A DNA stretch of 40,654 bases from Pedobacter sp. (GTDB taxonomy: Bacteria; Bacteroidota; Bacteroidia; Sphingobacteriales; Sphingobacteriaceae). Positions 4,934-10,640 of this stretch are shown in pieces. Position 1 is the first letter of the stretch. Every line of letters starts with the position of its first letter. The notes under the pieces are model-generated. The model was not told the origin of the DNA. It did not search any database and saw only the letters and a list, made by a program, of their open reading frames with translations. Where the stretch lies: the NCBI GenBank assembly GCA_014377775.1, contig JACMOW010000081.1, forward strand, positions 1 to 40,654, read 5' to 3'. Both the position numbers and the translations under genes were made by a program.

Positions 4934-6394
4934 ATGATACAAAAGCTGCAGTTATACAATACCATTTCACGTAAAAAGGAACAATTTGAGCCGCTAAATG
5001 CACCTCATGTAGGCATGTATGTGTGTGGCCCTACAGTTTATAGTGATGTGCATTTGGGTAATTGTAGAACATTTATTTCGTTCGACTTAATTTTTAGATA
5101 TTTAAAATTTAGTGGTTACAGGGTGCGCTATGTGCGTAATCTTACTGATGCTGGTCATTTAGAGGGCGACAGAGACGAGGGTGATGATAAATTTGCAAAA
5201 CGTGCAAAGTTGGAACAGCTTGAGCCAATGGAAATTGTACAAAAATATACCTTGGGCTTTCATGATGTGATGCGGGTGTTTAATACCTTGCCTCCTAGCA
5301 TTGAACCTACCGCAACCGGTCATATTATCGAGCAAATTGAAATGATAAAAACTATTATTGCGAATGGTTATGGCTATGAAGTGGATGGAACAATTTATTT
5401 TGATGTAGAGAAATATAGCAAGCAATATAATTATACGGTATTAACCAATCGTAATTTAGAAGATATGCTTGCCAATACCCGAGAATTGGGTGGACAAGAT
5501 GATAAGCATGGTAGATTGGACTTTGCCTTATGGATAAAGGCGAAACCCGAAACCTTGATGCAATGGGCATCTCCATGGGGCGCAGGATTTCCGGGATGGC
5601 ACATTGAGTGCTCGGCAATGAGCGCTAAATATTTAGGGCAGGAGTTTGATATCCATGGCGGGGGATTAGATTTAGCCGCTACGCATCATACCAATGAAAT
5701 TGCACAATCAGAAGCTTGTAGTCATATTCAGCCTGCTAAATACTGGATGCATACCAATATGTTAACCGTTAACGGCACACGGATGTCTAAATCTGCTGGA
5801 AATGGCTTTTTACCTGATGAATTGTTTACGGGCAATCATCCACTGCTAAAAAAAGGGTATAGCCCAATGACGGTTAAGTTTTTTATGCTGCAGGCACATT
5901 ACCGCAGTACGTTAGATTTTTCGAACGAGGCCTTAGAAGCTTCCGAAAAGGGTTTTAGGCGTTTAATGAATGCAATCAGTTTATTGCCAAAGCTGAGTAC
6001 TAGTGAGCAAAGCGATTTTCAAATAGAACCGATTCGTGTTAACTGCGTCAATGCCATGAATGATGATTTTAATAGCCCGATTGTTATTGCAGAATTGTTT
6101 GAGGCGGTTAGAATAATTAACATTGTTTACGACGGAACTGCTACAATTTCTTCAGAAGAATTGGATAAACTAAAAGCTTTAATGAGCGATTTTGTTGTCG
6201 ATGTTTTTGGTTTGAAAGATGAAGATAGCAGTAATGCCGAATTAAATGATGTATTAGCCATGGTAATCGAATTACGTAAGGAGGCAAAAGAGAATAAAGA
6301 TTACGCAACCTCTGATAAAATTCGCATCGGTTTACAGGAAATGGGGATACAACTAAAAGATAGTAAAGACGGAACTACTTGGAGTAAGGTATAA
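4934..6394 (+). CDS. cysS: Cysteine--tRNA ligase
   Basis: Class I aminoacyl-tRNA synthetase that charges tRNA-Cys. The HIGH-type signature appears as HLGN (about residue 40) right after the zinc-binding CGPTVYSDV. Other zinc-site elements are WHIECS (about 222) and the HHTNE segment. The KMSKS loop is RMSKSAGN (about 283). The DALR-type C-terminal helical domain follows, with ELRKEAKENKDYATSDKIR near the end. The length of 486 aa is typical. The start was chosen from the conserved LQLYNTISRKKEQFEP opening and the promoter box just upstream. The upstream EEP gene ends 36 bp before it. Confidence 0.98.
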   Translation: MIQKLQLYNTISRKKEQFEPLNAPHVGMYVCGPTVYSDVHLGNCRTFISFDLIFRYLKFSGYRVRYVRNLTDAGHLEGDRDEGDDKFAKRAKLEQLEPMEIVQKYTLGFHDVMRVFNTLPPSIEPTATGHIIEQIEMIKTIIANGYGYEVDGTIYFDVEKYSKQYNYTVLTNRNLEDMLANTRELGGQDDKHGRLDFALWIKAKPETLMQWASPWGAGFPGWHIECSAMSAKYLGQEFDIHGGGLDLAATHHTNEIAQSEACSHIQPAKYWMHTNMLTVNGTRMSKSAGNGFLPDELFTGNHPLLKKGYSPMTVKFFMLQAHYRSTLDFSNEALEASEKGFRRLMNAISLLPKLSTSEQSDFQIEPIRVNCVNAMNDDFNSPIVIAELFEAVRIINIVYDGTATISSEELDKLKALMSDFVVDVFGLKDEDSSNAELNDVLAMVIELRKEAKENKDYATSDKIRIGLQEMGIQLKDSKDGTTWSKV

Positions 6395-6431
6395 TTCATT
6401 TTTTAGCTATATTCGTTAACTATTTAAAACT

Positions 6432-7286
6432 ATGAAAAAAATCTTTTATACCCTATCTGCATTATTAATTTGTTTTTCTGCTTATGCTCAAAAATCAGAC
6501 GGAAGTGCAAAGTCTTTAGCCAATGCCGAAATGGCTTTCTCGGCCTACACATTAAAGAATGGAACAAATGCTGCGTTTACTACTTTTGCTGCACAAGATG
6601 GCATTGTGTTTAGACCAAATGCTGTGAATGCCCGAAAATTTTATGCTACAGCACCTGATATGAAAAATTTGTCGTGGGCGCCAAGTTATACACAAATGTC
6701 GAGAAGCAGGGATTGGGGATTTACCACAGGTGCCTATATGATAGATGGCGAGCAGAAAGCATACGGACAATATGTGTCGGTATGGCGAGGTAAAGGTGGT
6801 AATTGGGAACTCATTTTAGATATGAGTGCTGAAACGAATAAGCCATTGCAAAAAGTTGTACCTGTTGTAATTGAACCTAAGGATAAATTTACCCCTGTTT
6901 TTGCTAATGAAAAAGATCTGAAAACAAGTAGAGACATTATCTATACTACTGAAAAAACATTAAATACGACGTTAAAAACGTATGGAGCTAGTGCATTTTC
7001 TGGATTTTTAAGTGCCAATTCTCGTTTGTTATTTCCCGGAACAGAGCCAATTTTAGGTAAGGAAAATATTCAGGCCTTTAATAATCGGATGATTGATAAA
7101 ATAAACTTAAAAACTGTATCTGCCGATAAGGCATTGGGTGGCGACTTAGCTTACACTTATGGGATAGCAACTATCGATTATAAAACAGATTTACGCGAAA
7201 GCTTCAATTATTTATATATATGGGAACGTCAGGCCGATTTTAGTTGGAATATTTTAGTGCAAATTTATACTTTAGCAGAACGTTAA
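6432..7286 (+). CDS. Secreted NTF2-like (DUF4440/SnoaL-type) protein, putative
   Basis: 284 aa with a clear signal peptide (MKKIFYTLSALLICFSAYAQ, cleavage after about residue 19). Two similar halves can be seen. Each begins with a helix (SLANAEMAFSAYTLKNG; IIYTTEKTLNTTLKTYG), carries a line of the form F-R/L-F-P in an early strand (DGIVFRPNAV; SRLLFPGTEPI), and ends in a W-containing strand (VSVWRGKGGNWELIL; YIWERQADFSWNILV). That pattern fits two tandem NTF2-like domains of the DUF4440 kind. No catalytic function can be assigned. The gene ends with a good intrinsic terminator and appears monocistronic. Confidence 0.7.
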   Translation: MKKIFYTLSALLICFSAYAQKSDGSAKSLANAEMAFSAYTLKNGTNAAFTTFAAQDGIVFRPNAVNARKFYATAPDMKNLSWAPSYTQMSRSRDWGFTTGAYMIDGEQKAYGQYVSVWRGKGGNWELILDMSAETNKPLQKVVPVVIEPKDKFTPVFANEKDLKTSRDIIYTTEKTLNTTLKTYGASAFSGFLSANSRLLFPGTEPILGKENIQAFNNRMIDKINLKTVSADKALGGDLAYTYGIATIDYKTDLRESFNYLYIWERQADFSWNILVQIYTLAER

Positions 7287-7307
7287 ACCAAACCAAATAT
7301 AAACCTG

Positions 7308-7339
7308 AAGGATTTCGGCTTTGCTGAGATCCTTTTTTT
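7308..7339 (+). terminator. Rho-independent terminator after the NTF2-like gene
   Basis: A stem of AAGGATTTCGGC pairing with GCTGAGATCCTT (one G-U-type position and one mismatch) across a 3-nt loop is followed by a run of Ts (7333-7339). It lies 21 bp after the stop. Confidence 0.85.
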
Positions 7340-7419: not shown

Positions 7420-8301
7420 ATGAACAAACTCATACTTTTATTTGCCATTTTTCAATTTGCTTTGAGCGGATTTGCTCAACATAAATTTGATGTTCAAGGT
7501 AAAGCGGGCTGCCGTGGCATTATGCCCGAAAATACCATTTCAGGCATGATTAAGGCCCTCGTGCTAGGTGCAACTACATTAGAAATGGATGCGGTAATTT
7601 CAAAAGATAAACAGGTAGTGTTATCTCAAGAGCCTTACTTTAATCATGAAATTAGCTTGTCGCCTGATGGGAAGCCAATAGCCTTTAAGGATGAAAAAAG
7701 GCATAATATCTTTAAAATGAATTATGAAGAGATTAAAAAGTATGATGTTGGAAGCAAACTTCATCCTCGATTTCCTGGTCAACAAAAGTTTAAGACTTAT
7801 AAGCCTTTGCTTGCAGAGGTGATAGACTCAGTTGAGAATTACGTTAAGCTATATGGATTGAGTAAACCAGATTATAGTATTGAAACAAAATTAATCCCAA
7901 AGGGGGATGGAGAATTTCAGCCCGATCCCGCTACCTATATAGAGTTGATTATTGAAATTGTAAAGAAAAGGAGGCTAGAAAAAAGAGTAATTATTCAATC
8001 TTTTGATGTGAGAACGCTCCAATATCTACATGGTAAATACCCAAAAATTAGAACTTCTCTACTAATAGACGAGAAGGAAGATTTTGAAAATAACATGAAA
8101 GAGTTGGGTTTTAATCCAACTATCTATAGTCCATACTCAGTTTTAGTAGGGAAAACATTGGTTGATAAGTGCCATGCTTTGGGAATTAAAATTATTCCGT
8201 GGACGATTAATTCAACAAAGGAAATTACTTATTTAATGAATTTAGGAGTAGATGGGATAATTACCGACTACCCAAATGTAATGGGACAGATAAGCAACTA
8301 A
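7420..8301 (+). CDS. Glycerophosphodiester phosphodiesterase family protein with altered catalytic site
   Basis: 293 aa, signal peptide (ends SGFAQ, about residue 20), then a GDPD TIM-barrel domain. Bacteroidota homologues usually begin GHRGCRG-x-x-PENT. Here the stretch reads GKAGCRGIMPENT, so the catalytic His of the HRG motif is Lys28 and its Arg is Ala29. The second catalytic His of the usual SHEP/HD motif is Gln70 (LSQEPY). The metal-coordinating elements remain: Glu37 in PENT, Glu55/Asp57 in TLEMD, and YSIETKL. The C-terminal barrel elements IIPWTIN and GVDGIITDYP are intact, so this is not a decaying pseudogene. A binding role or altered chemistry is more likely than normal GDPD activity. 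It converges on moxR with a 9-bp gap. Confidence 0.88.
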   Translation: MNKLILLFAIFQFALSGFAQHKFDVQGKAGCRGIMPENTISGMIKALVLGATTLEMDAVISKDKQVVLSQEPYFNHEISLSPDGKPIAFKDEKRHNIFKMNYEEIKKYDVGSKLHPRFPGQQKFKTYKPLLAEVIDSVENYVKLYGLSKPDYSIETKLIPKGDGEFQPDPATYIELIIEIVKKRRLEKRVIIQSFDVRTLQYLHGKYPKIRTSLLIDEKEDFENNMKELGFNPTIYSPYSVLVGKTLVDKCHALGIKIIPWTINSTKEITYLMNLGVDGIITDYPNVMGQISN

Positions 8302-8310
8302 TCGTCTTCT

Positions 8311-9273
8311 CTAAAACAAATCTTTAATAATCTGGGCTATCGATAAGCCTTCTGCCTCCGCTCTATAATTACGAACAATGCGATGGCGTAAAATGGCTTC
8401 GGCTATGGCTTGTACATCTTCAATATCTGGAGCGTATTTGCCCGAGATAGCGGCATGGCATTTAGCACCTAAGACTAAAAATTGAGAGGCCCGTGGTCCG
8501 GCGCCCCAGCTCACATAGTTATTGATGGCTGCTGATGACAAAGGGGTATTTGGGCGAGTTTTAGCAGCTAACTTAACCGCATATTCTAAAACGTGATCGG
8601 TAATGGGGATACTGCGGATCAATTTTTGAAAAAACTGTATTTCGCTGGCGTTAATTATTTTCTCAAGCGTAACTTCTCTATTGCTTGTTGTGTTTTTAAC
8701 AATGGTTAATTCATCTTCAAATGCAGGATAATCTAAGTAGATGTTAAACATAAAACGATCCAATTGCGCCTCAGGAAGGGGGTAGGTTCCTTCTTGTTCA
8801 ATTGGGTTTTGAGTAGCTAGAACAAAAAATGGCTGCGGTAAACTATGCGTTTGACCAGCTATCGTAACTGCTTTCTCTTGCATCGCTTCTAACAATGCTG
8901 CCTGGGTTTTTGGAGGGGTACGGTTAATTTCATCCGCTAAGATGATGTTAGAAAAAATGGGCCCTTTTATAAATTTAAGATGACGATCTTCTCCTAAAAT
9001 TTCGGCGCCAATAATATCACTTGGCATCAAATCAGGTGTAAATTGAATCCGGTTAAAAGAGAGGTCTAAAACGCTGGAAACGGTTTGTACCAATAAAGTT
9101 TTAGCCAAACCCGGTACGCCAACTAACAAGCAATGGCCATTGCTAAAAATGGCGACTAATACAGATTTTATCACCTCATCTTGACCAATAACTACCTTAT
9201 TAATTTCAGACTTGATTTTTAAGAAGGACTGATGCAAGGCATCGACAGCTTTTACCTCATTTTCAAACTGCAT
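8311..9273 (-). CDS. MoxR-family AAA+ ATPase
   Basis: 320 aa. The Walker A motif is GVPGLAKT (about residue 57) and Walker B is ILADEINR (about 117). Sensor/arginine-finger features follow, with ATQNPIEQEGTYPLPEAQLDRF as a family hallmark. MoxR ATPases act as chaperone-like factors, usually with DUF58 and von Willebrand factor A proteins encoded next door. Here the partner genes are not downstream, because the gene is followed directly by the convergent GDPD-like gene. Upstream it sits 5 bp from the surA-like stop, so it is probably co-transcribed with the periplasmic folding genes. Confidence 0.93.
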   Translation of the reverse strand: MQFENEVKAVDALHQSFLKIKSEINKVVIGQDEVIKSVLVAIFSNGHCLLVGVPGLAKTLLVQTVSSVLDLSFNRIQFTPDLMPSDIIGAEILGEDRHLKFIKGPIFSNIILADEINRTPPKTQAALLEAMQEKAVTIAGQTHSLPQPFFVLATQNPIEQEGTYPLPEAQLDRFMFNIYLDYPAFEDELTIVKNTTSNREVTLEKIINASEIQFFQKLIRSIPITDHVLEYAVKLAAKTRPNTPLSSAAINNYVSWGAGPRASQFLVLGAKCHAAISGKYAPDIEDVQAIAEAILRHRIVRNYRAEAEGLSIAQIIKDLF

Positions 9274-9278
9274 GAAAC

Positions 9279-10640
9279 TTATTTTTTTTCGTTTTTAAAC
9301 CAAAGTTTCAATTCGTTGCAAGTGGCAAATTCTTCATCAACTTTAATATAAGTGGTTTCTTTACGCTTCTCGAACCATTCGCTCACAACGCGATCTTCTT
9401 TTTCCTTTTGTGCACGCTCCTTAAATTTCGGGTAGTCTTGCGCTAAATTTCCTTTATGTGGGGGAATTTTAGATTTTAGAAAGAAAATTTTATAACCTTC
9501 TTTTGCCTGTTCTGGGGTTGAAAAAGCAACAGGTTTAGAAATTCCTCCAATTTTCATGGTGTCAATCACCACAAAAACACTTGGATCTAATTTTTCAACT
9601 GGTATAAATGTAGTTCTGGCCGTAACATTATCTGCATATAACATCATACCACCGTTGTATTGTGTTTCTTTATTATCAGAATAGGTTGATGCAGCAAACG
9701 CGAATGGCATTTTCTTTACTGTAATATCGTTATAAATACTATCTGCTTTTAATTTTAATCGGCTTAAGCTTTCTGGTGTGGTTTGTGGGCGTACTAAAAT
9801 GTGTCGGGCGTGTACCTGTTCTCCTCTACGTTCAATAACTTGCAAAAAATGATAACCAGCATCAGTTTCAAAAACTGGTGATATTTCCCCAGTTTTTAAT
9901 TTAAAAGCCCATTGTGTAAATTCCTTAAACATGGCAGTTCTGTCAAAAAAACCTAAATCGCCACCTTCTGAAGCAGAACCAGGGTCTTCTGAGTAGCTTT
10001 TTGCTAAAAATCCAAAATCTTCACCGCTTTTTACACGAAGCCTCATTGCTTCAAGCTTATCATAATATTTTTGTTTTTCAGCTTTGCTTAACTTCGGATA
10101 TAAGGCTATTTCTCCCACCTCCACTTCTGTGCTTATGTCTGGTAAACTATCTTTTTGATAAGTTTCGAAATATTTTTTCACCTCTAGTGGTGTAACACTA
10201 ACATTTTCAGTAATTTTTGATTGCATTTTGTTCGCAATTAAGCCCTCTTTTACATCGGGTCTCATCTCGTCCTTATACTGTAATACCGATTTGCGTAAAA
10301 ATTGCTCCAACTGTTCTTGTCCACCCATGCGTTGTATCTGGTAACGCATACGTTTATCCAATTCATCATCCACCTGATTTTCTTGCACAACAATAGAATC
10401 GATTTCGGCTTGTTGCTTTAATAGTTTTTGAATAAGCATTTGCTGCAAATACACGCATTTAATCCGTTCGTTGGCCGGATTACCTTGATTTAAATAAAAG
10501 CCATATTGTTGATTTAATTCAGATAATAAAATAATATTACTACCTACTACCGCAACTACTTTATCTATTGCTTGCTTTTGTGCTTGTACATTCATAAACA
10601 GACACAAAAATGCAGCTGCTATATATAAGGATTTCTTCAT
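9279..10640 (-). CDS. SurA-like periplasmic peptidylprolyl isomerase
   Basis: 453 aa with a signal peptide (ends MNVQAQ). An N-terminal SurA-type chaperone region (about 22-170: KVVAVVGSNIILLSELNQQY, then helical) is followed by two parvulin domains. The first, about 172-275, contains the diagnostic AKSYSEDPGSASEGGDLGFF. The second, about 277-390, begins with ARHILVRP and has ASTYSDNKETQYNGG. It probably assists outer-membrane protein folding. A -7 box (TAACTTTG) lies 26 nt upstream of the start. The downstream moxR gene begins 5 bp after the stop, and a smaller parvulin-less relative lies just upstream. I give no symbol because Bacteroidota have several SurA-like paralogues. Confidence 0.92.
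   Translation of the reverse strand: MKKSLYIAAAFLCLFMNVQAQKQAIDKVVAVVGSNIILLSELNQQYGFYLNQGNPANERIKCVYLQQMLIQKLLKQQAEIDSIVVQENQVDDELDKRMRYQIQRMGGQEQLEQFLRKSVLQYKDEMRPDVKEGLIANKMQSKITENVSVTPLEVKKYFETYQKDSLPDISTEVEVGEIALYPKLSKAEKQKYYDKLEAMRLRVKSGEDFGFLAKSYSEDPGSASEGGDLGFFDRTAMFKEFTQWAFKLKTGEISPVFETDAGYHFLQVIERRGEQVHARHILVRPQTTPESLSRLKLKADSIYNDITVKKMPFAFAASTYSDNKETQYNGGMMLYADNVTARTTFIPVEKLDPSVFVVIDTMKIGGISKPVAFSTPEQAKEGYKIFFLKSKIPPHKGNLAQDYPKFKERAQKEKEDRVVSEWFEKRKETTYIKVDEEFATCNELKLWFKNEKK

Follow-up and report, generated by a model that had tools for sequence, protein, structure and literature searches.

The GDPD enzymes ttGDPD, GlpQ and S. aureus LpgD have in common with the protein studied here a TIM barrel and the motif order HR..EN..ExD..H (PMC4926365; PMC10404611). 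Characterised GDPDs bind their metal through the two acidic residues of ExD and a Glu further along the chain (PMC4926365), and for ttGDPD, work cited in PMC4926365 reports that mutation of any one of the three metal ligands gives an inactive protein. In LpgD, both half-reactions need the second His. The H93A mutant, in which this His is mutated, is deficient, and so is the mutant lacking both; significant activity remained in H51A (PMC10404611). The two histidines and the metal trio are essential or important in these enzymes, whereas the Pedobacter clade described below never has the full set. Pseudoenzymes are already known as a kind, and animals have an inactive relative in the PI-PLC barrel family, which is distantly related to GDPD. 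This protein, PRIP, is described in PMC4064000 and PMC6726632 as having roles in binding and regulation. PRIP, a multidomain cytosolic protein of animals, serves as an analogy only. In our literature search, no paper dealt with a GDPD pseudoenzyme from bacteria or with the present Pedobacter gene; as a sign that none exists, this is weak.

The window is the whole 40,654-nucleotide stretch of Pedobacter sp. DNA analysed here. At 7420..8301 on the plus strand, it contains an exact open reading frame of 293 codons from ATG to TAA. We propose its 293-residue product to be a GDPD-fold pseudoenzyme, considering the reading frame, the Pfam match, the match to PDB entry 3ch0 and the AlphaFold2 model together. 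The PF03009 (GDPD) profile matches the product with E=1.1e-28 and 101.4 bits against a cut-off of 23.6, which places it in the family, and its top solved relative is 3ch0 (E=4.4e-77). The model has a mean pLDDT of 95.8 (79 aligned sequences used) and aligns to 3ch0 with TM scores of 0.88/0.94 and an rmsd of 1.1 Å. The predicted structure is a TIM barrel with the canonical GDPD fold. The fold search also lists the beta-1,3(4)-glucanase 7wwc at rank 35 with 19% identity, which raised the idea of a glycoside hydrolase; the literature search gave no description of the 7wwc active site, and the idea was dropped. Residues 1-20 (MNKLILLFAIFQFALSGFAQ; 7420..7479, plus strand), which end in FAQ, were read by eye as a likely Sec signal peptide. 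This region is hydrophobic, has no lipobox Cys and contains a helix at residues 2-17 in the model. The protein is probably exported, with a periplasmic location.

We then inspected the active site. The first catalytic His and the phosphate-binding Arg (HR) are replaced by Lys28-Ala29 (7501..7506, plus strand; codons AAA and GCG), and the second catalytic His (HD/HE in GDPD enzymes) is replaced by Gln70 (7627..7629, plus strand; codon CAA). The codons bear out the sequence-only reading, which had seen GKAG in place of GHRG and a Gln at the SHEP histidine (SQEP). The metal trio is complete by alignment. Specifically, codons 55-57 (7582..7590, plus strand) encode Glu-Met-Asp, an intact ExD pair with GAA for Glu55 and GAT for Asp57, and codons 155-157 (7882..7890, plus strand) encode Glu-Thr-Lys, comprising the third ligand Glu155 (GAA) and Lys157 (AAA). 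The same reading had listed Glu37, Glu55 and Asp57 as intact metal ligands. The latter two are intact in the window protein, but Glu37 had to be rejected, since the alignment assigns it to the PENT motif and, with the ligands as defined in PMC4926365, gives Glu155 as the third. Judged from its residues, the window protein is very unlikely to cleave glycerophosphodiesters by the known route, as both histidines and the Arg are gone. It may still bind metal, since it and the 50 orthologues with Lys28-Ala29 nearly all retain Glu55, Asp57, Glu155 and Lys157.

Canonical GDPDs provide the comparison. The Cytophaga hutchinsonii GDPD 3ch0, the nearest solved relative, is 45% identical over the fold alignment and has the insertion and the PENT, WTxN and TDYP motifs of the window protein, but it has HRG, EFD, SHD and the later Glu/Lys, as opposed to KAG and SQE in the window protein. 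The secreted GDPDs of the SHEPFFNHEI type, found class-wide in Bacteroidia (e.g. L201-L203 and L208), are 51-56% identical and share the motif order, but keep HR, ExD and His in all cases; they likely represent the ancestral type. We counted H28, R29, E55, D57, H70, E155 and K157 as the full catalytic set. All seven residues are present in 40/40 other GDPDs read from the same bacterial family, including 12 paralogues from Pedobacter that all read HR/EDE/H/K, and in 19/19 class-wide relatives for which each of these sites was checked. The majority of Pedobacter genomes also have a GDPD paralogue with 43-50% identity. Stop codons in the match tables had hinted at decay of this canonical paralogue; seven of eight genomes checked have it open, and the idea was dropped. 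The canonical paralogue of one genome (L234 of G032) looks frameshifted.

The genus sample comprises 101 Pedobacter genomes, and residues were counted in 109 distinct orthologous proteins. An orthologue with 54-84% identity is found in 100 of the 101 genomes, and the one genome without a clear orthologue is 81% complete and has a weak match only. The nearest orthologue, from Pedobacter insulae DSM 18684, is 84% identical and likewise has Lys-Ala and Gln. None of the 109 orthologues has the full set of seven residues, and 24 residue combinations are seen. The changes noticed in the window protein belong to an orthologous group, a check that the sequence-only reading had proposed: position 70 is Q in 86, H in 21 and A in 2; position 28 is K in 50, H in 23, N in 22, Q in 13 and D in 1; position 29 is A in 50, R in 48, Q in 10 and M in 1. 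The ExD pair, intact in the window protein as had been noted, is gone in about half of the orthologues. Position 55 is E in 58, the rest having N, G, K, V, D, I, T, L and others, and position 57 is D in 62, N in 28, E in 13, G in 5 and S in 1. Position 155 is E in 108/109 and position 157 is K in 97/109.

The residues change in company. K28/A29 is paired with E55 and D57 in 50/50 orthologues and with E155 in 49, Lys55 accompanies Asn28 and Glu57 in 10/10, and Asn57 is found only alongside a lost Glu55 (28/28). As related sequences share the changes, these combination counts do not equal independent events. The combinations look charge-balanced. His70 is the sole missing catalytic residue in six orthologues. 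A subgroup of five (L146, L072, L068, L077 and L089) keeps both histidines and an acidic trio (HQ..DxD..H, with DDE as the trio), with Arg29 and Lys157 gone, and might retain some activity. The two most diverged orthologues (L101 and L128, of genomes G046 and G169) have Lys55 and Ala70, share a stem of 0.86 and lie outside the conserved locus.

The orthologues form one clade (SH-aLRT 100) with a stem of 0.61 changes per column. On a tree made without the seven catalytic columns, the minimum number of changes within the clade is 16 at site 55, 10 at site 28, 9 at site 57, 4 each at sites 29 and 157, 2 at site 70 and 1 at site 155, compared with a median of 1 for the other columns that are invariant in canonical GDPDs (Mann-Whitney p=0.008). 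The Lys28-Ala29 pair requires a minimum of 2 changes. These counts fit an already inactive ancestor as well as parallel losses. The protein is strongly conserved in the clade, with a mean identity of 74%, and the catalytic residues are not conserved alongside. Pairwise dN/dS of close orthologues is 0.019-0.057 (NG86; dS is saturated in some pairs, among them the window pair with dS 2.7), and no internal stop codons occur among the orthologues listed. Among the positions that are fixed in the clade but differ between canonical GDPDs are P72, F74, N75, S79, N96, R117, F166, D217, E218, K245 and Y271. The loops that follow the barrel strands are enriched in such positions (Fisher p=0.024; 0.007 without the insertion), a modest signal given that the loop limits were drawn manually on the DSSP string and that the clade is of more recent origin than the GDPDs it is compared with.

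Catalytic residues are lost in every orthologue (0/109 with the full set), the gene is under strong purifying selection and retained genus-wide (100/101 genomes), and its locus is conserved. We put at about two in three the probability that this is a Pedobacter-specific GDPD pseudoenzyme, which would have kept the barrel and pocket rim for ligand binding or partner contact and dropped cleavage. A copy of a canonical GDPD of Bacteroidia would have settled between DUF4440 and moxR in the Pedobacter ancestor and taken up a role independent of phosphodiester cleavage. From then on, different lineages would repeatedly have replaced catalytic histidines, metal ligands and the Arg/Lys that contact phosphate, each in its own way, with constraint persisting on the barrel, on Glu155 as the third acidic residue and on the positions newly fixed around the mouth of the barrel. 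In the window lineage, Lys28, which stands in for His28 beside Glu55, Asp57 and Glu155, probably provides the positive charge of the metal. The lysine amine may replace the metal in two lineages, and the acidic cluster may have been dismantled in others. The retained function could be to bind a ligand in the old pocket, e.g. a phospholipid head group or a glycerophosphodiester, or to contact a protein in the periplasm, and we infer that GDPD activity is absent in the clade. More specific is the proposal of a binding or regulatory barrel throughout the genus, in which a lysine (28 in one lineage, 55 in another) substitutes for the metal and several lineages dismantled the active site independently, or else of a new chemistry in the Lys28 lineage; we regard this version as rather unlikely.

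The sequence-only reading had suggested a pseudoenzyme or a new activity as opposed to decay. The outcome that it had named as a refutation, an isolated mutation or sequencing error, is not borne out by the orthologues. Selection and the incomplete active sites support this pair of possibilities, and the loss of Glu55 and Asp57 in about half of the orthologues favours the pseudoenzyme over the new activity. A new enzyme would perform other chemistry using Lys28 together with Glu55, Asp57 and Glu155, or using other conserved residues such as E71, D217 and E218. The pairing of K28/A29 with the acidic residues, the strong purifying selection and the residues newly fixed where the barrel opens speak for such an enzyme. 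However, orthologues at the same locus have I, V, T, N, G, K or L at position 55 and N, E, G or S at position 57, and a pocket whose chemistry varies in this way speaks against a single new activity common to all. Such an activity would need to be confined to the KA lineage or to rely on other residues. We consider a new enzyme unlikely. Equally hard to favour is a residual or altered phosphodiesterase, in which some members would bind metal and slowly cleave a special diester, the place of the histidines being taken by water or by groups of the substrate. The metal trio of the window protein, the six orthologues missing His70 only, the five with both histidines and an acidic trio, and the significant activity of LpgD H51A (PMC10404611) agree with this idea, but LpgD needs its second His in both half-reactions, its double mutant is deficient (PMC10404611), and the metal ligands are also gone in many orthologues.

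Another conceivable role, known from heteromers of pseudoenzymes with enzymes, is that of a partner that regulates the canonical paralogue. Such a paralogue is present in most genomes of the genus, and the 12 that were read have the complete set; yet four near-complete genomes (G005, G048, G083 and G087) show the pseudoenzyme as their sole close match, and the genome of the window, 88% complete, also has no close paralogue. Even though other GDPDs under the search threshold could fill the partner role, this explanation is improbable. Sequencing error, isolated mutation and pseudogene decay can be dismissed with near certainty: the changes are common to dozens of independently sequenced species, K28/A29 occurring in 49 other orthologues in all and K/A/Q in P. 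insulae, the frame is open in all orthologues listed, and dN/dS of 0.02-0.06 indicates a selected protein.

As a pseudoenzyme clade that extends over a genus, with an active site incomplete in every member examined, this group would also bear on annotation. Annotation of a GDPD as an enzyme relies on a profile match and nothing else, and the window protein easily passes the cut-off, so each Pedobacter genome probably has about one protein wrongly labelled as a GDPD enzyme. The clade is a natural experiment, with one gene at one locus in some hundred species and two dozen dismantled versions of the active site under strong selection. It allows one to test what a pseudoenzyme must retain of its pocket, and what role a secreted GDPD barrel has when it does not cleave.

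The gene order at the locus is genus-wide: mutL, two rhomboid-like genes, cysS, DUF4440, the GDPD-like gene and, on the minus strand, moxR and a surA-like gene. In the window, sequence and synteny identify cysS (4934..6394, plus strand), a MoxR-type ATPase gene (8311..9273, minus strand) and a SurA/PpiC-type prolyl isomerase gene (9279..10640, minus strand) as conserved context. The upstream neighbour (6432..7286, plus strand) encodes a secreted DUF4440 (NTF2-like) protein (Pfam PF14534, E=5.9e-11). DUF4440 is directly upstream on the same strand in 84/84 loci showing both genes, and within 500 bases in 82 of them, with outer gaps exceeding 500 bases in 40/80 and 28/69 loci. In P. insulae, a mere few bases separate the two genes. 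This adjacency is suggestive of joint use, but not proof of it, because DUF4440 is widespread (130/151 genomes; 20/25 genera sampled). As strong evidence for a joint-function operon, the arrangement is weakened by the greater age of DUF4440, and further by a genus of the same family (g21; L235) that has cysS, DUF4440, moxR and surA at this locus with the GDPD-like gene absent. It is also weakened by a terminator-like hairpin with a T run between the two genes in the window (7307..7335, plus strand), found by consensus scan only. The locus in g21 suggests that the GDPD-like gene was gained at this place in the lineage of Pedobacter, unless g21 has lost it.

Some loci depart from this order. In two other Pedobacter species, an M28-type-like peptidase gene lies between cysS and DUF4440 (L170:6100-7095 and L172:5826-6833); the corresponding gap in the window (6394-6432) has no such gene. 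In genome G169, DUF4440 is about 26 kb from the orthologue. At another locus (L058:5554-6624), which reaches a contig end, a transposase-like reading frame, IS110-like by eye, lies directly upstream of the GDPD-like gene and occupies the place expected for DUF4440.
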